DNA from: a bacterium | GTDB lineage: Bacteria > SZUA-79 > Acidulodesulfobacterales > Acidulodesulfobacteraceae | Assembly: GCA_021813595.1 (NCBI GenBank) | Contig: JAKAKF010000222.1 | Span: forward strand, 1 to 36,718 | DNA: 36,718 bases | Reading direction: 5' to 3' | In this document: piece after piece, positions 8,107 through 17,991 of the stretch | How positions within the stretch are numbered: position 1 is the stretch's first letter | How the letters are laid out: each line of letters starts with the position of its first letter | Notes under the pieces: generated by a model | What the model was told of the DNA's origin: nothing | What the model saw: only the letters and a program-made list of their open reading frames with translations | Databases searched by the model: none | Program-made: the position numbers and the translations under genes

Positions 8107-9462
8107 ATGCTTTCAAAATTAAACAAATTTATTTCTTCGGTTAAACTCGCCGTTTTTCTTTTTATAACAATCGCCGTTCTTGCCATGATAGGTACGTTTA
8201 TAAATCAAGGCGATTCGGTAAAACAGTATAAAGCAATTTTCTCTCCGACGGCTTATCACGTATTATACTGGCTCGGCTTTTTAAATATTTACGATTCATG
8301 GTATTTCATCGCGCTTACTCTGCTTCTGATAGTCAATCTTATAGCCGCATCTATCAATATGTTTCCGCATACTATAAAAGCGGTTTTCGGTCCTTACCCC
8401 TCTTTTCAAGAAATATCGGAAAAGAAAAACCCTAAAGCGGTATACGAGGCATTCGAAACAAAAAAGAAACCGAAAGAAGCAAAAGAAGCTATAGGTAAAA
8501 AATTCGGGGAACAGTTATATGAAAAAATAAGCGAAAATGGCAATAAAACAGAATTATACTATTCCAAAAATTCTATTTTTAGATTTTCTCCTTACATTGC
8601 CCATATAAGCGTAATAATAATTATTATAGGAGTATTGTTAAACTTTAAATACGGATTCAGGTCATATACCAACATTAAAGTTGGAGAAAAAACCAACGTT
8701 ACGTACCTTTTAAAAAATAACAAGCCGATTAAGCTTCCTTTCACGATAAGACTTGACAGATACCGCACGACTTATTATCCCGACGGGATCCCTAAGGCTT
8801 ACATAAGCAAAATTAGCATAATCGAAAAACATATAAGAATTTTGACAAAAAATATTGAGGTAAACCATCCCTTAACTTATAAAGGGATTACTATATATCA
8901 GGCAAGCTATGGGCATTATAAACCCGATAAATACGGTATTTTAGTAGTTAATTTACGACATATTAAATCTTTTAAAAAAATAATATATGCATCGGCTGGA
9001 AAATATTATAATTCTAAAATAAATAACATTAAATTTATGCTAACCAGGGTTAATATAAAAGGTAAAATGTCCTATTTTCCCTATATAATTAAACTAAATA
9101 ATAAAAAAATTTTAAATTTTAGGATTATACGGGTTAAAAATCACAATTTCCCTCTTATTATAGCAAGATATAAAAATATAGGCTTCATAATGACTCCGCA
9201 ATTAAAAACTTATTATTATAGCGGCGTCGAAATATCTAAAAATACATACGTATCTATAGTTTGGATAGGATGCATAATTCTTGTGATTTCTTTATTTTTT
9301 TCATTTTTCTTTAACCATGAAGAGACGTGGATATCGCTATACGGCATTAATGACGGTAAAAAAACAAAGATTGAAATAATTTCTATACCGAAAAAGAAAT
9401 TTAATTCTTTTTACAAGAAATTCGCTCAAAAAATTAATGAACTAAAAAAATACTTAAATTAA
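8107..9462 (+). CDS. resB: Cytochrome c biogenesis protein ResB (Ccs1), System II
   Basis: A 451-residue inner-membrane protein of the ResB/Ccs1 family. Two N-terminal membrane helices (KLAVFLFITIAVLAMIGTFI, about 13-33; SWYFIALTLLLIVNLIAASI, about 70-90) and a third (HISVIIIIIGVLLN) precede a large periplasmic domain with the family's NHPLTYKGITIYQASYG block. A last helix near 400-420 follows. ResB works with CcsA to carry haem across the membrane and attach it to CxxCH motifs of apocytochromes. There is no Shine-Dalgarno sequence and a promoter ends 6 bp upstream, so translation may be leaderless. ccsA follows after 35 bp. The nearby kinase at 12343-14169 carries a CxxCH that would be a client. 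Confidence 0.93.
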   Translation: MLSKLNKFISSVKLAVFLFITIAVLAMIGTFINQGDSVKQYKAIFSPTAYHVLYWLGFLNIYDSWYFIALTLLLIVNLIAASINMFPHTIKAVFGPYPSFQEISEKKNPKAVYEAFETKKKPKEAKEAIGKKFGEQLYEKISENGNKTELYYSKNSIFRFSPYIAHISVIIIIIGVLLNFKYGFRSYTNIKVGEKTNVTYLLKNNKPIKLPFTIRLDRYRTTYYPDGIPKAYISKISIIEKHIRILTKNIEVNHPLTYKGITIYQASYGHYKPDKYGILVVNLRHIKSFKKIIYASAGKYYNSKINNIKFMLTRVNIKGKMSYFPYIIKLNNKKILNFRIIRVKNHNFPLIIARYKNIGFIMTPQLKTYYYSGVEISKNTYVSIVWIGCIILVISLFFSFFFNHEETWISLYGINDGKKTKIEIISIPKKKFNSFYKKFAQKINELKKYLN

Positions 9463-9497
9463 TTTAAACACGTTAAGAGTTGCCAGAGGTTATAACT

Positions 9498-10394
9498 ATG
9501 ATTTCTCCGAATATATCCGTACTTGACGGTTCCTTATATTTTACTGTTTCGCTTCTTTTCATTTTTGTTTCTTTTATTGGTTATTTTATTTTTTTATTTA
9601 CCGGAAACAAAACTATCACAAAAATATCCTTCGTTATATTAATTGCAGGCTTCATAATTCAAACCGCTGCATTTATTATAAGATGGATATATGCCTATAA
9701 GATAGGGATAGACACGCCGCCGTTGGTCGATTTATACGACTCGATGGTATTTTTTGCATATGTTATTGAAGCCGGTTATATAATATTAAGAATTTTTTAC
9801 GATTTTGACGCCCTTGGCTTTATAATTACGTTTATAGCATCGGCGGCGCTTGCTTTTGCCACTTTTTATCCGCTTTCTACAAGCGCAATAGAACCTACTA
9901 TTCCCGCGCTGCAAAGTTACTGGCTTTTATATCATATTATGACTTTATTCGTAGCTTACGGCGCATTTGCGGCTTCATTCGGATTGGGAATTCTTTATTT
10001 AATAAAAAATAAGAAAGATAAAGGCAACAAAAAACGGGAAAATAGATTTTTGTCGCTTTTGCCCGAATCTGCAGTAATAGAAGAATCTATTTATAAGGTG
10101 ATATCGGTCGGACTCGTTTTTTTAACCGCAGGAATAGTAATAGGCGCCGCATGGGCGGACAGCGCTTGGGGCGGTTACTGGAGCTGGGATCCTAAAGAAA
10201 CATGGTCGCTAATAACGTGGATAGCATACATTTTATTTATTCATGCCAGATTTACCAAAGGATGGGGCGGCAAAAAAATGGCATGGATCGCCGTCATCGG
10301 ATTTGCGGTCGTTATATTTTGCTATCTCGGCGTAGATTTGATAATACCGGGACTGCATTCTTATGCGACGCCGGGGTCGACTCCAATCTTATAA
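9498..10394 (+). CDS. ccsA: Cytochrome c biogenesis protein CcsA (CcsB/CcmF-like haem handling), System II
   Basis: A 298-residue polytopic protein with about eight membrane helices. The family's haem-binding WWD motif is present near the C-terminus as WGGYWSWDPKETWSL. Histidines flank it: LLYHIMTLFVAYGAF in the earlier helix and IPGLHSYATPG near the end, the usual external haem ligands. With ResB it makes the System II cytochrome c synthetase. I start it at the ATG at 9498 because AGAGG lies 8 nt upstream; a TTG at 9480 is in frame but has no such site. It directly follows resB. No CcsX/ResA thioredoxin is in the window. Confidence 0.93.
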   Translation: MISPNISVLDGSLYFTVSLLFIFVSFIGYFIFLFTGNKTITKISFVILIAGFIIQTAAFIIRWIYAYKIGIDTPPLVDLYDSMVFFAYVIEAGYIILRIFYDFDALGFIITFIASAALAFATFYPLSTSAIEPTIPALQSYWLLYHIMTLFVAYGAFAASFGLGILYLIKNKKDKGNKKRENRFLSLLPESAVIEESIYKVISVGLVFLTAGIVIGAAWADSAWGGYWSWDPKETWSLITWIAYILFIHARFTKGWGGKKMAWIAVIGFAVVIFCYLGVDLIIPGLHSYATPGSTPIL

Positions 10395-11769: not shown

Positions 11770-12300
11770 TTAATTTCCGTAGCTGCCGTCCGGAGACATT
11801 GAGGGCATAACAGCCTCCTGCAATATGGAATTATTTTCGTAAATATACTGCATTATATAAATTACTTTCCCTACATTTCTTCCGTACTGCAATTTTTCGT
11901 AAACGTTAGGTACGTATTTTAGAGTTTTAAACAGTATCGGATAACCGTAAAGATTTTTTTCTATTAAAGTGCTTAAAGGTATTACCGCAGAATTATTAGA
12001 AATAGCAAACTCCAGCCAGCATACTCCGCCGGCATTAAAAACCGCTTCGTATTTAACTTTGTTTATCTTATATTCATATGCCGTTATACCGGAATTTTTA
12101 TAATTATACTGAGACAGGTCCGGCTGTATAATATAAAGTTTTTTCAAAGAAATCTTCCGCATTTTGTATTTTGACTGCATATTTTTTAAAGTGCCGCCTA
12201 CCGCCGCGTAAACTTTATTGCAGTTAATAAAATTTAACGCAAACAGCATACCCGCCGCAATAAATGCAAAAATTAAATTTTTTTTAATAATAATTTTCAT
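11770..12300 (-). CDS. Secreted protein of unknown function
   Basis: A 176-residue protein with a clear Sec signal peptide: KK near the N-terminus, a hydrophobic core (LIFAFIAAGMLFALNF) and probable cleavage after KVYA near residue 32. The mature part is Tyr/Lys/Asn-rich with a single cysteine (GGVCWLEF) and no domain I recognise. AAGGAGC lies 8 nt before the ATG. It starts 43 bp downstream of the cytochrome-kinase stop and ends the signalling operon, so it may be an extracytoplasmic partner of the kinase's periplasmic cytochrome domain. That link is inference from position only. Confidence 0.6.
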   Translation of the reverse strand: MKIIIKKNLIFAFIAAGMLFALNFINCNKVYAAVGGTLKNMQSKYKMRKISLKKLYIIQPDLSQYNYKNSGITAYEYKINKVKYEAVFNAGGVCWLEFAISNNSAVIPLSTLIEKNLYGYPILFKTLKYVPNVYEKLQYGRNVGKVIYIMQYIYENNSILQEAVMPSMSPDGSYGN

Positions 12301-12342: not shown

Positions 12343-14169
12343 TTATTTTAAACTTTCCAACCAGCCCGCAATCTGAGCGACTTCTTCTGCCGGCATATTT
12401 GGATTAGGCGGCATTGAAGAACTCGGATGCGTAATCTGATTTTCTATCTGCGCATAACTTAATTGCGAACCGATGTGGGAAAGGCTGTAACCGCCCTGTT
12501 TTCCTTTACCTAATATAACGTGGCAGTAAAAACATCCAGACATATCGAAATCTTCATAACCTGGACCGCTAAATACCGAAGCTTGAGATTGCGGCTGAGG
12601 CTGCGGTATCGGCCGAAATCGAGGCGCTGTTTTTGGTACAGTCTTGCGATAATAACGATAATGATGAACGGCAGTATTTTGATTCGGCGTAGGCAAAATA
12701 TATGTATTATTAGACGTCTTATTGACATGCTTCTTACCTGTAATTTTATTTTTGTTTTTACTATTTTTATGATTGTTTTTAGAATGTTTTTTTGATTTTA
12801 ACAGTTTTTTTAAAGCTATTGACTTGCCTGAATTAACGCTTTTATGTTTTTTGCCATAAGAAAGGTACCTAAAATAAAAAAAATAGCCTGCTGCAGCTAA
12901 AATTGACGCAAAAAATATAATTGCCGCTGCTAAAATATATAAATTGATTTTATTTTTAGAACCGTAATTGTTATAATTTACGTTAGAATTTGCGTTAAAA
13001 TTTACATTTGCTGATTCAGCATTTTTATTTGCATCTGTTTTATTATTTAAATATCGATTATTTTTAACTTCAGAAAAATTTGACGACTCTTCGTAATCAG
13101 TCCTGATATTTTCAGGGGGAATATTTTTTGACTGTTCAAATGCAATTGCCTGCTTATCCTCTCTATGCTTAAATTGGTTAGCGGCATCCGGCGCATTTTG
13201 AATTTTAGATATATTTAGTTCTTGTCCGGCTAAAACTTCGGGTTTTTCTAATCCGTCTAAAAGTTTAAGCAATTCCTCCGTATTTTTTATCCTTTCCGGT
13301 ATTTTTACCGTCAGTCCTTTATTCAAAATATCTTTTAATCCTACGCTTATTCCCGTAAAATCTATGCCTAATCCTCCTGCTAATTCGGTAGCTTCAGGAG
13401 GAGGAAATCCTTTTAAAAGAGCGTATAGCGTAGCGCATATTGCATAAACATCAGTATATTCGCCTCTTTTACCCTTACCTCCGTATTGCTCTAAAGGAGC
13501 ATAGCCCGGAGTTAAAATTTTTTCGTAAGTCTTAGTTTTATCCGCCGTAAACACCCTCGAAGAACCAAAATCTATAATTTTAATATCTTCGCCGGTTTTT
13601 ACTATAATATTTTCCGGTTTTATATCCTGATGCAGCATGCCGGCGGCATGTATTATTCCTACTGCTTTAGCTATCTGCTTTATATATTTAACGGCTTCAT
13701 TTTCTTTTACTTTCCCTAAAAGAGATAACAGAGAAGTTCCTTCTATATATTCCATTACGATATAAACGGTGCCGTTTTCTTCGATTACATCGTAAACGTC
13801 CACTATCCAAGGATTTTTTAATTTTGCTATAGATTTTGCTTCATTTTTAAAATTTTCTATATTTTCTTCGTTGTCGCGGGTAGGCGGAATTGTAACTTTG
13901 CTTCCTGTTCTGACGGCTATTCCGTCGGGAAAATATTCTTTTATCGCAACTTTTCTTTCTAATTTTTCGTCATAAGCAAGATAAGTTATTCCAAAACCGC
14001 CCTGCCCTAAGACCTTTTCTATTTTATATTTTAAAAAAACAATACTCCCGCTATCGAGCGGCGTGCAGGAATAGCTTTCTCCCAAAGCGGCAGATATATC
14101 TCCTCCGCAAACCGGACATTTTTCTGCGTTATCGGGTATAACGGAGGAGCAATAAGGACAATCCTTCAT
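12343..14169 (-). CDS. Receptor Ser/Thr protein kinase with C-terminal cytochrome c domain
   Basis: A 608-residue fusion in one uninterrupted frame. Residues 1-25: zinc ribbon (C4, C7, C18, C21). Residues 45-305: Hanks-type kinase with GQGGFG (55-60), K77 in VAIKEY, E110, HQDIKPEN (catalytic D182), DFG (200-202) and GYAPLEQYG (222-230), so it is predicted active. Residues 310-405: Asn-rich linker. Residues 409-433: one membrane helix. Residues 439-530: a very basic, then Pro/Gln-rich linker. Residues 533-608: a mono-haem cytochrome c domain with CFYCH (546-550) and Met candidates in SSMPPNPNMP (M586, M592), ending in the usual helix AQIAGWLESLK. The topology puts the kinase in the cytoplasm and the haem in the periplasm. 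FHA, PP2C and VWA genes precede it; ResB/CcsA are nearby. The ligand or redox signal is unknown. Confidence 0.92.
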   Translation of the reverse strand: MKDCPYCSSVIPDNAEKCPVCGGDISAALGESYSCTPLDSGSIVFLKYKIEKVLGQGGFGITYLAYDEKLERKVAIKEYFPDGIAVRTGSKVTIPPTRDNEENIENFKNEAKSIAKLKNPWIVDVYDVIEENGTVYIVMEYIEGTSLLSLLGKVKENEAVKYIKQIAKAVGIIHAAGMLHQDIKPENIIVKTGEDIKIIDFGSSRVFTADKTKTYEKILTPGYAPLEQYGGKGKRGEYTDVYAICATLYALLKGFPPPEATELAGGLGIDFTGISVGLKDILNKGLTVKIPERIKNTEELLKLLDGLEKPEVLAGQELNISKIQNAPDAANQFKHREDKQAIAFEQSKNIPPENIRTDYEESSNFSEVKNNRYLNNKTDANKNAESANVNFNANSNVNYNNYGSKNKINLYILAAAIIFFASILAAAGYFFYFRYLSYGKKHKSVNSGKSIALKKLLKSKKHSKNNHKNSKNKNKITGKKHVNKTSNNTYILPTPNQNTAVHHYRYYRKTVPKTAPRFRPIPQPQPQSQASVFSGPGYEDFDMSGCFYCHVILGKGKQGGYSLSHIGSQLSYAQIENQITHPSSSMPPNPNMPAEEVAQIAGWLESLK

Positions 14170-14270: not shown

Positions 14271-15890
14271 CTATGCAATACGCTTAATAACAAGGGCGGT
14301 CGCATTATCCGGAGCGCCTTTTTCTATTGCGTAAGAAACAAGCGCATCTGCTATATATTGAGCGCCGAATTTATTTATAGTGCCGCAAACGTCACCATCG
14401 TCGTTTTTTGCCTCCGAGTATTCAATGCCGATGCCGCAAGCCGAACCGCTTAAAATTTTCATTATATCCTTCTCTTCCAACTCCGACCATATTCCGTCGC
14501 ATACTATTAAAACAATATCGCCAATATTTAAATCTTCCGTTTTTTTTCCTATAATTTTTTGTAAATCGTCAAAATATTCGCTCTGCCTGTTTCTTACTAC
14601 TCCCAAGGATTTTAAAATTTTATTTCTGTCAGGGCTTATTCTTGCTTCTTCTTCGGTCATATTGCCGCTTGATACCATAAGCGAAACATATGAATGATCT
14701 TTAGTAAGCCTTTTTAATTTACATTCGGATTCAGCATTAACCCATAGATAAGCCCTTGAATCGCCGACATGAGCCAAAGCAAACGTCTCGTTTTTAAAAA
14801 TAATGCCTATAAAAGTACAGCCGCCGTCTTTTCCTTGAAGCTCGTCGAATACGCTTTTATTTGCCTGCCATGCCGAATCTATTACGATATCGTTAAGGTC
14901 TTTAGAAAAATTTTCGGCGTTCTCGGAACTTTTCAAAAAACCTTTAACGGCAGCCGTGCTTGCATATTCTCCGGCCGCCATTCCGCCCATACCGTCCGCA
15001 AGGCATGCTTTTAACATGACGTTTTTTTCGCTAAAATTTATATTGTTTTCGATAACGTAACCGCAGGCATCTTCATCTACAAGCCTATCCGGATTTAAGC
15101 CTACGGACGAAGATATTCCTATATCGAATCTTACCGCCGCTTTTCTTTCTTCGTTAATATTTTTTAAATAACCGATTGCTTCATCGATATTAAATCTCTC
15201 TTCCCGCCTTGAAAGCGTTTTGGATAAAAATTGAGGGAAACCGGGTATTTTTATATTGTTAATATAATCGGGAACATCGATATCGTAGGTATTTATATTA
15301 TCTCCGGTTAAAAACTTATAAGCAATAAGCCCCAGTATGTAAACCCCCTCTTTTCCAGTTGCGATATCATGCATTAAAACTTCAGGAGCGACGGAATCTC
15401 TCGGTGAAAACATCTTTTTTCCAATTTCCGATAAATCGGGCAGTATATTCAATTTAATTTTGTCGCCGTAAACATATAAAGAATCAGGATTGATATACAG
15501 CAGAGATATTCTTTGTTCGTTAAAAAACTTAATAATTTCCGCCAAATCGGAAATATATTTTACTATTAGGCCGATTTCTTTTTTTGAAGAAGGAATTTTA
15601 AATTCGTATTTCTTATATTCCTTGTCCGCCGAAATTATTATTTCATTGTCAGTACAAAGCAAAATATCGGGCAGGGCGGAACATCCAAGAATGTCTTTCC
15701 ATAAGCCGCAATTACCCCTGTAATACAGAACCGATTCTCCCGCATTATTTTTAGCCGAATGCCATCCTTGTATAAAAGGACCATCGATTTTTAAATTAAC
15801 GCCGGCGGCGTTAATTATATCGCCTTCTTTTAAAAACTGCGTTTCGGAAGCCGCCGAATATATTTTTTCTTCAAGGTTTTGCCTATGCAT
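14271..15890 (-). CDS. PP2C-type Ser/Thr phosphatase with N-terminal degenerate kinase domain
   Basis: A 539-residue cytoplasmic protein. Residues 255-539 are a PP2C phosphatase with its metal-binding acids: RLVDEDACG (269-277), LADGMGGMAAGE (298-308), HVGDSRAYL (374-382), CDGIWSELEEKDI (464-476) and GAPDNATALV (526-535). Residues 105-247 resemble the C-lobe of a protein kinase without the catalytic residues: YINPDSLYV stands where HRDxKPENILV would be and no DFG follows. SVAPEVLMHD and VYILGLIAYKFLTG keep the APE and D-x-Y-x-L-G positions, followed by the terminal helices. This looks like a pseudokinase fused to its phosphatase. It lies between the FHA and kinase genes in the same operon and probably reverses that kinase's phosphorylation. 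No Shine-Dalgarno sequence is seen. Confidence 0.87.
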   Translation of the reverse strand: MHRQNLEEKIYSAASETQFLKEGDIINAAGVNLKIDGPFIQGWHSAKNNAGESVLYYRGNCGLWKDILGCSALPDILLCTDNEIIISADKEYKKYEFKIPSSKKEIGLIVKYISDLAEIIKFFNEQRISLLYINPDSLYVYGDKIKLNILPDLSEIGKKMFSPRDSVAPEVLMHDIATGKEGVYILGLIAYKFLTGDNINTYDIDVPDYINNIKIPGFPQFLSKTLSRREERFNIDEAIGYLKNINEERKAAVRFDIGISSSVGLNPDRLVDEDACGYVIENNINFSEKNVMLKACLADGMGGMAAGEYASTAAVKGFLKSSENAENFSKDLNDIVIDSAWQANKSVFDELQGKDGGCTFIGIIFKNETFALAHVGDSRAYLWVNAESECKLKRLTKDHSYVSLMVSSGNMTEEEARISPDRNKILKSLGVVRNRQSEYFDDLQKIIGKKTEDLNIGDIVLIVCDGIWSELEEKDIMKILSGSACGIGIEYSEAKNDDGDVCGTINKFGAQYIADALVSYAIEKGAPDNATALVIKRIA

Positions 15891-15959: not shown

Positions 15960-16514
15960 TTAGAAGTTGAACATAAAAAGCATATTGCCTAATGATACTT
16001 CGTCTCCGTTATTTAATTCGACCGGTTCTGTAATTCTGGACGAAAATTCCTTAGCCGAAGCAGATTTTACAAAAACGCCGTTTGTGGAACCTGCGTCTGA
16101 AACAAACCATTTGCCGTTTTCAAAAGTAAATTTCGCATGTTTCCTCGATATGTGTTCGTCTCCGGAAAACCCAGACAAATCTATATCTATCGGACCGGCA
16201 GACGAATCGAACCTGCCCGCAATCAAATAATTAGATTTTAAATCAAAAAATTTATCCGTTAAATTTCCGTCTATTTTAAATGTTAAACGCGCAGGTTTAA
16301 ACTCGGCAAGCCGTTCTGGTTTTTCTTTAATTTCCGATAAATTACCGTCGGCACCGGATTGGTTTTCATTTAAGGTTTTAATATTATTAAGCGAAGATTT
16401 ATTTAAGTTTATATTTTCTTCAGGCATTTCAAAATCTATTAATTCGGAACCGTCTATATTGCAAAATTTCTTATCGTCCGTAAACTTTTTTCTACATACA
16501 GGGCATATTTTCAT
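15960..16514 (-). CDS. Zinc-ribbon and FHA domain protein (phosphothreonine reader)
   Basis: A 184-residue cytoplasmic protein. The N-terminus is a zinc-ribbon-like finger, MKICPVCRKKFTDDKKFC (C4, C7, C18; no obvious fourth Cys). A disordered Asn/Glu-rich linker follows (30-70). Residues 75-184 form an FHA domain with AGRFD (99-103), SRKHAKF (123-129) and SDAGSTNGVFV (139-149), the residues that bind phosphothreonine. AGGAGG lies 5 nt before the ATG. It is encoded between the VWA and PP2C genes, so it most likely reads phosphothreonine made by the kinase of this operon. The kinase has a similar N-terminal finger, which suggests a shared docking principle. Confidence 0.88.
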   Translation of the reverse strand: MKICPVCRKKFTDDKKFCNIDGSELIDFEMPEENINLNKSSLNNIKTLNENQSGADGNLSEIKEKPERLAEFKPARLTFKIDGNLTDKFFDLKSNYLIAGRFDSSAGPIDIDLSGFSGDEHISRKHAKFTFENGKWFVSDAGSTNGVFVKSASAKEFSSRITEPVELNNGDEVSLGNMLFMFNF

Positions 16515-16593: not shown

Positions 16594-17991
16594 TTAAATT
16601 CCGGAAAGTTTTCTAATCTGCTCGTCGGAAAGTTCGTTTTCCTGACTAATTTTTATTGTTTTTGTTTTTGAACCTATCCTTAAAGTTTTCGACGTACCTA
16701 TGCTTATAGTTTTATTTTCTTTTATTTCATCCTGCGCCTTCTCTATTATTTTAGTCATAGCGCTATTGCCGAGCTTAACGGTCATACGTTTTGCCATATC
16801 TAAAGTTTTAGAGGCGTTAGAAGGATCCTCGCCCGCTTCTTTTAATGCTTTTTCCAATAAACTGCCTACGTTTCTTTGCTGAACCCACTGCATTACTTCG
16901 TTATTAACAACCGACGCCTTGGATTCGTCCATGGTAAACTCGACAATAACGTCTTCCGGAGGGTTTTCTCCGCGGTAATTGCCGTCCGGCATATCGTAAG
17001 TTAAACTTAACTGCATAAGACGCGATTTGATGGGTTTGCGTTCAGGCAAAGTAGATTCTATTATAAAAACGCTGTTTCCTTCGGGATTTATGCTGCCGAG
17101 AAAATGAGGTTTTATATTTATATCGACCTCGGAAACTTCGGGATAAACCTTAGTTATCCTGTCGACTGTTACGTCTTTTACGGTATTTAACGTAAGAGAT
17201 AGCCCCGTTAAAGTTTCATTAACGGCATGTTCTAATTCTTTTATCATAATATCAGGTATCTCAGAGGGTTTTATAACTATTCCCGATGCATCGTCTCCGC
17301 CGTTAGCCGAAGCATAGTAAGGTTTGCCTTGCGTTTTATCGGTAATAAAAGAAATAAGATTTTCATTCCAGTCTTCGCCGATTCCAACGGCTATTAACGG
17401 TATATTTAATTTTGCCAGTTCCAGCGACATTTCTTTTACCAAATCCTCGTCGGAGGTCTGCCCGTCGGTAAGCATTATAATCTTTCTATTTCCGGTTTCT
17501 TTAGAAATTAAATCTAAAGCTTCTTTCATTCCTGCGCCCATAGAAGTGCCGCCGCTGTAATTTATAAGTCCGTCTATTGCATTCAATATTAAATCCTTAT
17601 TTTTACTCTCTATATTAACGAAAGGCAGTAAAACGTCGGCTTTATCGTCAAATTTAATAAGGCTTACCCTGTCGGTATTTTTCAATTTTGACGAATTAAC
17701 AAAGTTTTTCAACCCATCTATTAAAATTCCTATTTTAGAATCGCCTCCGGTCACTATATTATAAGTATTGCCGTCTATAGTCTGCGTTTTACCGGTATTT
17801 ACCGGAGAACCGGCGACAATCTCCCTCATGGATCCCGAAGTATCGATTATAAATGCTATAGATAAAGGAGGTTTAAAATCTGTTTTTCGGTTTGCTTCAA
17901 GTTTTAACTCTATGAAAAGTTTTTGATCGGGGGTGTCTGCCATTAGGTAACTTCTATGCGGAATAATTTTTACGTCGAGCAGTTTAGACAT
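16594..17991 (-). CDS. VWA domain protein of a kinase/phosphatase operon
   Basis: A 465-residue soluble protein. Residues 42-250 are a von Willebrand factor A domain with a complete MIDAS metal site: AFIIDTSGSM (D50, S52, S54), the Thr of SGGTSMGAGM, and the Asp of IIMLTDGQTSDE. Residues 250-380 are a beta-rich region as in other bacterial VWA proteins. A helical part follows, and the C-terminal 40 residues hold a Thr/Lys repeat around KTISIGTSKTLRIGSKTKT (T428, T433, T436, T443, T445). No signal peptide is seen, so it is cytoplasmic. It is the first gene behind a perfect promoter, with AGGAG 7 nt before the ATG. VWA-PP2C-kinase triads are known from Ter-type stress systems; here the VWA may be a scaffold or substrate. 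Confidence 0.87.
   Translation of the reverse strand: MSKLLDVKIIPHRSYLMADTPDQKLFIELKLEANRKTDFKPPLSIAFIIDTSGSMREIVAGSPVNTGKTQTIDGNTYNIVTGGDSKIGILIDGLKNFVNSSKLKNTDRVSLIKFDDKADVLLPFVNIESKNKDLILNAIDGLINYSGGTSMGAGMKEALDLISKETGNRKIIMLTDGQTSDEDLVKEMSLELAKLNIPLIAVGIGEDWNENLISFITDKTQGKPYYASANGGDDASGIVIKPSEIPDIMIKELEHAVNETLTGLSLTLNTVKDVTVDRITKVYPEVSEVDINIKPHFLGSINPEGNSVFIIESTLPERKPIKSRLMQLSLTYDMPDGNYRGENPPEDVIVEFTMDESKASVVNNEVMQWVQQRNVGSLLEKALKEAGEDPSNASKTLDMAKRMTVKLGNSAMTKIIEKAQDEIKENKTISIGTSKTLRIGSKTKTIKISQENELSDEQIRKLSGI

Follow-up and report, generated by a model that had tools for sequence, protein, structure and literature searches.

The minus strand of the window, by which we mean the whole stretch of 36,718 nucleotides that was analysed, encodes a receptor Ser/Thr kinase with a predicted cytochrome c head. 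The reading that we favour, with a probability of roughly one in two, is that of a transmembrane redox-receptor kinase, in which the head senses how reduced or oxidised the periplasmic electron carriers are and controls the kinase in response. From N- to C-terminus the protein comprises a zinc ribbon, a Hanks-type kinase, a disordered stretch, a membrane helix, a linker and a mono-haem cytochrome c (Table 1). The kinase chassis is known; what is new is a receptor Ser/Thr kinase with a putative cytochrome c sensor, and the reuse of its head beside Hsp70.

Table 1. Positions in the window of the kinase gene, its parts and its neighbours.
Feature	Positions	Strand	Details
Receptor Ser/Thr kinase with predicted cytochrome c head	12343..14169	-	608 aa, one frame
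Zinc ribbon, N-terminal	14107..14160	-	residues 4-21; CPYC 4-7, CPVC 18-21
Hanks-type kinase domain	13255..14028	-	residues 48-305; K77, E110, HQD 180-182, N187, DFG 200-202
Single membrane helix	12880..12942	-	residues 410-430, from hydropathy
K/N- then P-rich linker	12571..12864	-	residues 436-533; disordered, fast-evolving, probably periplasmic
c551/c552-type mono-haem cytochrome c head (predicted)	12346..12570	-	residues 534-608
Haem-attachment motif CFYCH	12520..12534	-	residues 546-550
Axial Met M586 (predicted), in SMPP	12412..12414	-	invariant, 24/24
Secreted partner	11770..12300	-	176 aa; signal peptide by eye; invariant Cys-Trp (94-95)
PP2C-type phosphatase	14271..15890	-	539 aa; long N-terminal part without Pfam match
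FHA-domain protein	15960..16514	-	phosphothreonine reader by family
von Willebrand A (VWA) domain protein	16594..17991	-
ResB and CcsB/CcsA-type maturation genes (system II)	8107..10394	+	outside the conserved operon

The original prediction described a single continuous frame, and 608 residues are indeed open on the minus strand; frame 1 of the plus strand holds many stops over the same positions. Its residue numbering (K77, E110, D182, D200-G202 and C546-H550) is likewise correct. The same frame is open in the nearest genome, G001, where the kinase gene is 99% identical and two further matches exceed the Pkinase cut-off, and in relatives from separate metagenome-assembled genomes, which argues against an assembly join. 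A frameshift join is ruled out by the shared frame together with selection on the head, and a chance CxxCH by the invariant haem residues (24/24 aligned sequences) and a head dN/dS of about 0.05-0.10.

The aligned sequences come from a protein search with the window kinase, in which the 7,990 candidates sharing most words were scored, 4,538 reached E≤1e-3 and the best 120 were listed. The reference alignment takes the best 25 of the 4,538 (P0001-P0025) minus P0011, giving 24 full-length rows, and CxxCH and MPP are retained in every one of the 23 full-length homologues other than the window kinase. P0011, which has 394 residues, stops just past the helix and may be truncated by its contig, is alone among the best 25 matches in being without the head, so that the earlier check for homologues in close relatives that have no cytochrome domain speaks mostly for the prediction. 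The other 95 of the best 120 include five with a CxxCH, none of them cytochrome-like, and the 79 further kinases among the matches listed in a second kinase-led search (7,980 candidates scored, best 120 listed) include three, again none cytochrome-like; all eight motifs sit among paired CxxC motifs of zinc-ribbon type. Both searches scored the top word-sharing candidates, and cytochrome heads on unrelated kinases could therefore be missed.

Pfam Pkinase matches residues 48-305 with an E-value of 9.1e-40, and K77, E110, D182, N187, D200, F201, G202 and the glycines G55/G57/G58/G60 are invariant in all 24 aligned sequences. The Hanks-type motif set is complete, and phosphotransfer is predicted. 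The arginine of the HRD motif, dispensable for Hanks-type membership, is absent: the catalytic loop reads HQD, with Q181 in 24 of the 24 aligned relatives, implying a non-RD kinase whose activation-loop control may differ from that of PknB-type kinases. Ahead of the kinase, the four zinc-ribbon cysteines are invariant (24/24), and the Pfam match to Zn_Ribbon_1 in the window kinase scores under its gathering cut-off. For the kinase part, dN/dS is about 0.10, 0.08 and 0.12 between the window and the related loci L001, L002 and L003, and 0.13 between the window and L005.

The conservation of the head is equally marked in its haem-binding positions. The C-terminal CFYCH of the original prediction is borne out by C546, C549 and H550, which are invariant in the 24 aligned sequences, with F547 and Y548 varying. 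The distal methionine that it proposed can be placed at M586, invariant together with P587 and P588; M592, a second candidate, is found in at least 90% of the 24, not in all. Other residues of the head that are invariant in the 24 include G537, F541, G556, G560, L563, G567 and W603. Pfam Cytochrome_CBB3 matches residues 545-604 at E 3.9e-5, its 24.3 bits falling just short of the gathering score, 27, and when the relatives are scanned singly at E≤0.01, 17 of the 24 match PF13442 and 14 match PF00034. A search of profile libraries with the head region, suggested at the outset as a check, went further: a profile of 13 heads matches solved cytochromes c-551 and c-552, with a best E-value of 1.7e-5. 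At E≤0.01 it takes in 17 different solved sequences, most of them of these two kinds. M586 aligns with the methionine of the mPP motif in the solved cytochromes 2d0s and 5xec, for which the alignments were printed. No match to PF11845 (DUF3365/Tll0287, sCache_heme) was found in the window kinase with Pfam at E≤1. The sequence evidence thus supports the head as a class I c-type cytochrome of the c551/c552 type. Its dN/dS is about 0.08, 0.05 and 0.10 between the window and L001, L002 and L003 (dS is saturated against L005), and purifying selection on the head is as strong as on the kinase. Since CxxCH and MPP are conserved and c-type maturation genes are present, the head probably carries covalent haem and lies in the periplasm.

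Structure prediction was also proposed as a check. With the 24-row alignment AlphaFold folds most of the kinase well and the activation loop poorly; the head has a pLDDT of 41-50, and the full-protein model yields no usable head. The model places the helix at 404-439. Both linkers of the window kinase are disordered, the outer one with a pLDDT of about 30 over residues 441-530, and this outer linker evolves fast, with dN of 0.40-1.01 and dN/dS of about 0.3-0.7 in four comparisons (about 0.37, 0.30, 0.31 and 0.70 for the window against L001, L002, L003 and L005). Within 20 residues of the helix, Lys and Arg are equally or more frequent on the C-terminal side in 14 of the 24 aligned sequences and less frequent in 10, so the positive-inside rule is ambiguous here and lends the topology no support. 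The head and outer linker probably lie in the periplasm, and conservation, profiles and selection all support the architecture proposed at the outset: a cytosolic kinase, one helix and a c-type cytochrome outside.

The kinase gene belongs to a row that reads, on the minus strand, VWA, FHA, PP2C, kinase and secreted partner, with intergenic gaps, counted from the partner end, of 42, 101, 69 and 79 bases, the 42 separating the kinase from the downstream partner. This order recurs in L001, L002 (where the FHA gene is split over two frames), L003 and L099. The partner stands 3.4 kb off in L094-095, no FHA gene was recognised in the row of L005/L098, and the kinase lies in two frames in L097; L003 and L005 are two copies within one genome. 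Flanking genes differ in L005/L098, L094-095, L097 and L099 while the row persists. ResB and CcsA lie about 2-6 kb away in the window, G001, L001 and L002, and are neighbours in G003 too, where there is no kinase at the locus; the L003 stretch ends inside the next gene and is uninformative on this adjacency. As general operon partners ResB and CcsA were rejected, and they are placed outside the unit because the row is kept without them where the flanks differ. A search for ResB matched 24 of the 30 family genomes, among them 11 of the 13 with the head; it gave no match in the two other head-bearing genomes, G002 and G030. A Pfam scan of ten neighbouring window genes revealed no structural gene of type VI secretion (T6SS), and the FHA protein scores 29 against the TagH model, for which the cut-off is 120.

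Two side observations concern the genes of this row. The first 270 residues of the PP2C protein, which have no Pfam match at E≤10, resemble a degenerate kinase C-lobe by eye. In G001 (L124, on G001:C43, 8879-10848) the VWA and T2SSE genes are shortened, encoding 379 and 270 residues compared with 465 and 597 in the window, and face each other over a 17-base gap, as if the stretch between had been lost.

At E≤0.01 neither Pfam nor NCBIfam assigns the secreted partner to a family, its profile finds no solved structure at E≤1, and AlphaFold gives no usable model (mean pLDDT 55.6); it has no evident cofactor site besides the one invariant Cys-Trp. Its distribution follows that of the head closely. 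Among the 30 family genomes the specific head occurs at 14 places in 13 genomes (E≤1.1e-27; next match 9.9e-12) and the partner at 15 places in 14 (E≤1.1e-41; next match 1.3e-9). Both are present in 12, the head alone in one (G024, whose 8 kb contig yielded no partner), the partner alone in two (G003 and G027) and neither in 15, a co-occurrence with a Fisher p of 1.7e-5, uncorrected for shared descent. Nine of the 14 head loci, a head remnant in G029 included, have the partner within 0.5 kb downstream; the distance is 1.2 kb in G005 and 3.4 kb in G017, while the two genes of G009 and those of G030 sit close to contig ends and may be adjacent.

Retention of the head, so regular among the nearest proteins, breaks down at family level, where the search found no specific head in 17 of the 30 genomes, in one of which (G021) the kinase gene is cut by the contig end. 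The system is therefore dispensable. In places it appears to be in the course of loss, since G029 keeps just the head remnant, with a shortened VWA gene on one side and the partner on the other, and G028 has its kinase in two frames. In G003 (L096, 11218-13462) the T2SSE gene and those from VWA to kinase are missing between an ammonium transporter and the retained partner; this gap is either a natural deletion or an assembly gap.

The head is not confined to kinases. The helix-linker-cytochrome module also ends the 400/418-residue proteins of G005 (L022/L101) and G024 (L024/L102), whose heads are about 60% identical to that of the window and whose first ~190 residues match no family (this first part was searched alone for G005). 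In both genomes the gene stands after genes for GrpE and Hsp70, which Pfam recognises in G005 at E-values of 3.4e-20 and 5e-116, and is followed by genes for a small membrane protein and a TPR protein. The G005 row then continues with the secreted partner, which shares 68-72% identity with its window counterpart. The GrpE-Hsp70 paralogue row with the module fusion occupies L101:11142-16281 in G005 and L102:2623-7298 in G024. The protein database supplied two more proteins of this Hsp70-side type, P0202 and P0203. The search with an Hsp70-side head scored 16 candidates and gave four matches of its own kind, the query included; it missed even the kinase heads, and is therefore silent on further architectures. 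In head trees the four Hsp70-side heads cluster (100/100 in one tree, 84/60 in the other), among or beside the kinase heads, and a branch with 100/99 support separates them and 10 kinase heads from P0025 and the free-standing cytochromes. That one head occurs on two quite different proteins, in G005 with the same companion, hints at a plug-in module that senses redox state on the outer side of the membrane. Tentatively, the portable head and its dedicated partner could provide a redox input both to the kinase operon and to the operon of GrpE, Hsp70 and the 190-residue domain, with the redox state of the carriers controlling phosphorylation in the one and chaperone action in the other.

Where the head came from can be approached through kinases that are without it. 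A search of 386 genomes with P0025, scoring three candidates per genome, listed G142 and G279 as the best matches outside the family, with E-values of about 1e-85. Each has a row of VWA, PP2C and kinase genes, the VWA and PP2C proteins being 32-33% identical to those of the window and the kinase part 43-46% (49% to the P0025 kinase). Neither kinase has a CxxCH, and that of G279 (L117) ends in Sel1 repeats, without helix, linker or cytochrome; no partner or FHA gene was recognised within the 6 kb taken. The existence of a headless relative of the row outside the family makes the kinase and row a wider chassis and the cytochrome the changed part, and the chassis seems older than the head. Taken together, the protein resembles an established kinase chassis fitted with an exchangeable redox head of c551/c552 type. 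Plasmid records gave part matches only, none of the 724 covering 80% of the query.

P0025 itself comes from one metagenomic contig, and no match listed from the 386 genomes covers it in full. In the tree its head falls between the module clade and the free-standing cytochromes of the family, nearer to the latter, a position that allows either one or two recruitments of the head. The free-standing relatives in the family are small cytochromes, one of which (L077) shares its stretch with a cytochrome b gene, and the head query also picks up short cytochrome c reading frames in many of the family's 30 genomes; the kinase head may have been drawn from such small cytochromes c. Two of them stand side by side in G001 (L123, G001:C4:110800-113000). 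Separately, L089, L090 and L093, from genera g2 and g5 of the family, encode 599-608-residue membrane proteins that have two CxxCH close to the C-terminus; the second of these motifs falls within a domain of small-cytochrome type. Named relatives among the matches are Candidatus Acidulodesulfobacterium sp. (P0006) and Candidatus Acididesulfobacter guangdongensis (P0021). The part of PMC6776010 considered here describes the lineage, from acid mine drainage, as facultative, sulfate-reducing and oxygen-respiring, and perhaps as oxidising sulfide and iron.

How might such a protein work? In the redox-receptor reading the zinc-ribbon kinase would sit in the cytosol with its own PP2C phosphatase, FHA reader and VWA protein from the same row, and the helix and a flexible tether of ~100 residues would hold a low-spin His/Met cytochrome of c551 type in the periplasm. 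The His/Met iron would be six-coordinate and would cycle between two redox states. The head could trade electrons with the periplasmic cytochrome pool, dock on the secreted partner, or both, and the oxidised, reduced or docked form would gather or separate kinase molecules and so set phosphorylation. Because a disordered tether of this length cannot transmit a mechanical push across the helix, the reading has to assume clustering or docking; we infer clustering as the switch, as we do the redox signal and the role of the partner.

The original prediction left the signal open between the redox state of the haem and a ligand such as CO, NO or sulfide. Redox state fits better, given an invariant axial methionine and the fact that the head's closest free-standing relatives are small cytochromes. 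An axial methionine usually gives a closed, six-coordinate haem, and in a ligand sensor, of the sort proposed for NO in sCache_heme receptors, NO, CO or sulfide would have to displace it in order to switch the kinase, which we consider unlikely. The part of a preprint considered here does report sensor-like binding of NO by a periplasmic c-type haem domain of a signalling receptor (PMC12889525), and that of PMC6776010 has the host organisms turning over sulfide; the window head, however, groups with c551/c552-type cytochromes and not with the Cache family of sCache_heme, and the invariance of M586 in 24 of 24 sequences makes gas sensing less likely. The nearness of ResB and CcsA in the window, G001, L001 and L002 could instead point to a checkpoint on maturation or haem supply, the head being read as apo or holo and the kinase reporting on cytochrome c assembly. 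That is rather unlikely, given the four sets of loci in which the row is kept without adjoining maturation genes, and an invariant methionine and so many conserved head residues exceed what a bare attachment site needs.

The direction of flow might also be reversed. A helix, a long disordered linker and a cytochrome recall cytochrome c-y, a membrane-anchored carrier, and the kinase, the Hsp70-side protein or both might serve to position a tethered electron carrier, an effector rather than a sensor, whose electrons would go to a respiratory complex or the secreted partner. The head belongs to an electron-carrying kind of protein, and the same module is present on an unrelated protein; however, the partner offers no evident cofactor site apart from its Cys-Trp, and a dedicated phosphatase and FHA reader beside a kinase typify signalling, and we regard this inside-out arrangement as improbable. 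Least probable by some way is a pure recognition module, in which the cytochrome fold would be a docking surface for the partner and redox irrelevant: the co-occurrence of head and partner and the nature of the linker suit docking, but a docking surface alone needs neither haem attachment nor an axial methionine, and both are invariant.

The redox-receptor kinase that we prefer has parallels in known systems. By sequence, the solved chain closest to the window kinase is PpkA (5hnv, E 1.3e-38), a kinase of type VI secretion, of which the ten neighbours scanned here include no structural gene. Below the family members, the matches listed include zinc-ribbon Hanks-type kinases, from other phyla too, that are 34-50% identical over the kinase part; their C-terminal parts vary, and the Pfam accessions listed for them include what we take to be WD40, beta-helix, sulfatase-modifying and TPR families. 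In PASTA kinases HRD is usual, in contrast to the HQD of the window kinase, which has no PASTA match in Pfam and scores 162 bits against the NCBIfam PASTA-kinase model, for which the cut-off is 450. The layout is nevertheless that of the PASTA kinases PknB, PrkC and StkP as outlined in the portion of a review considered here, with a cytosolic kinase, one helix, an outer sensor and a phosphatase gene nearby (PMC6213207). Cytochromes c-551 and c-552 have the same CxxCH, the same mPP methionine and about 80 residues; the window version differs in being the C-terminal head of a membrane-anchored kinase.

As a sensor the closest likeness is to sCache_heme (DUF3365/Tll0287), in which, according to the part of PMC12889525 considered here, a covalent c-type haem outside feeds a cytosolic output; that domain is a Cache fold with an inserted CxxCH, whereas the window head is of cytochrome c type. 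The outputs listed in that part are histidine kinases, MCPs, GGDEF/EAL proteins and cyclases, and Ser/Thr kinases are not named among them (PMC12889525). No cytochrome-c-headed Ser/Thr kinase stands among the papers listed from open-licence full texts, which is a weak sign of absence. The word 'cytochrome' is absent from two main texts, that of the review of Hanks-type kinases (PMC6213207) and that of a paper on Planctomycetota kinases, whose supplement covers 105 accessory domains (PMC11032199), and the part of PMC9448743 considered here has nothing on the window kinase gene.

If the redox reading is correct, c-type haem sensing would extend from histidine kinases, chemoreceptors and cyclic-nucleotide enzymes to the Hanks-type kinases. 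Receptor Ser/Thr kinases are common in bacteria, and few of their signals are known. A sensor cofactor that is titratable, coloured and well understood would let sensor state and kinase activity be measured together. We know of no precedent for a link from a pool of electron carriers to a chaperone; the head beside Hsp70 and GrpE would, if this interpretation holds, be a direct connection from the outer electron-carrier pool to chaperone control inside the cell.
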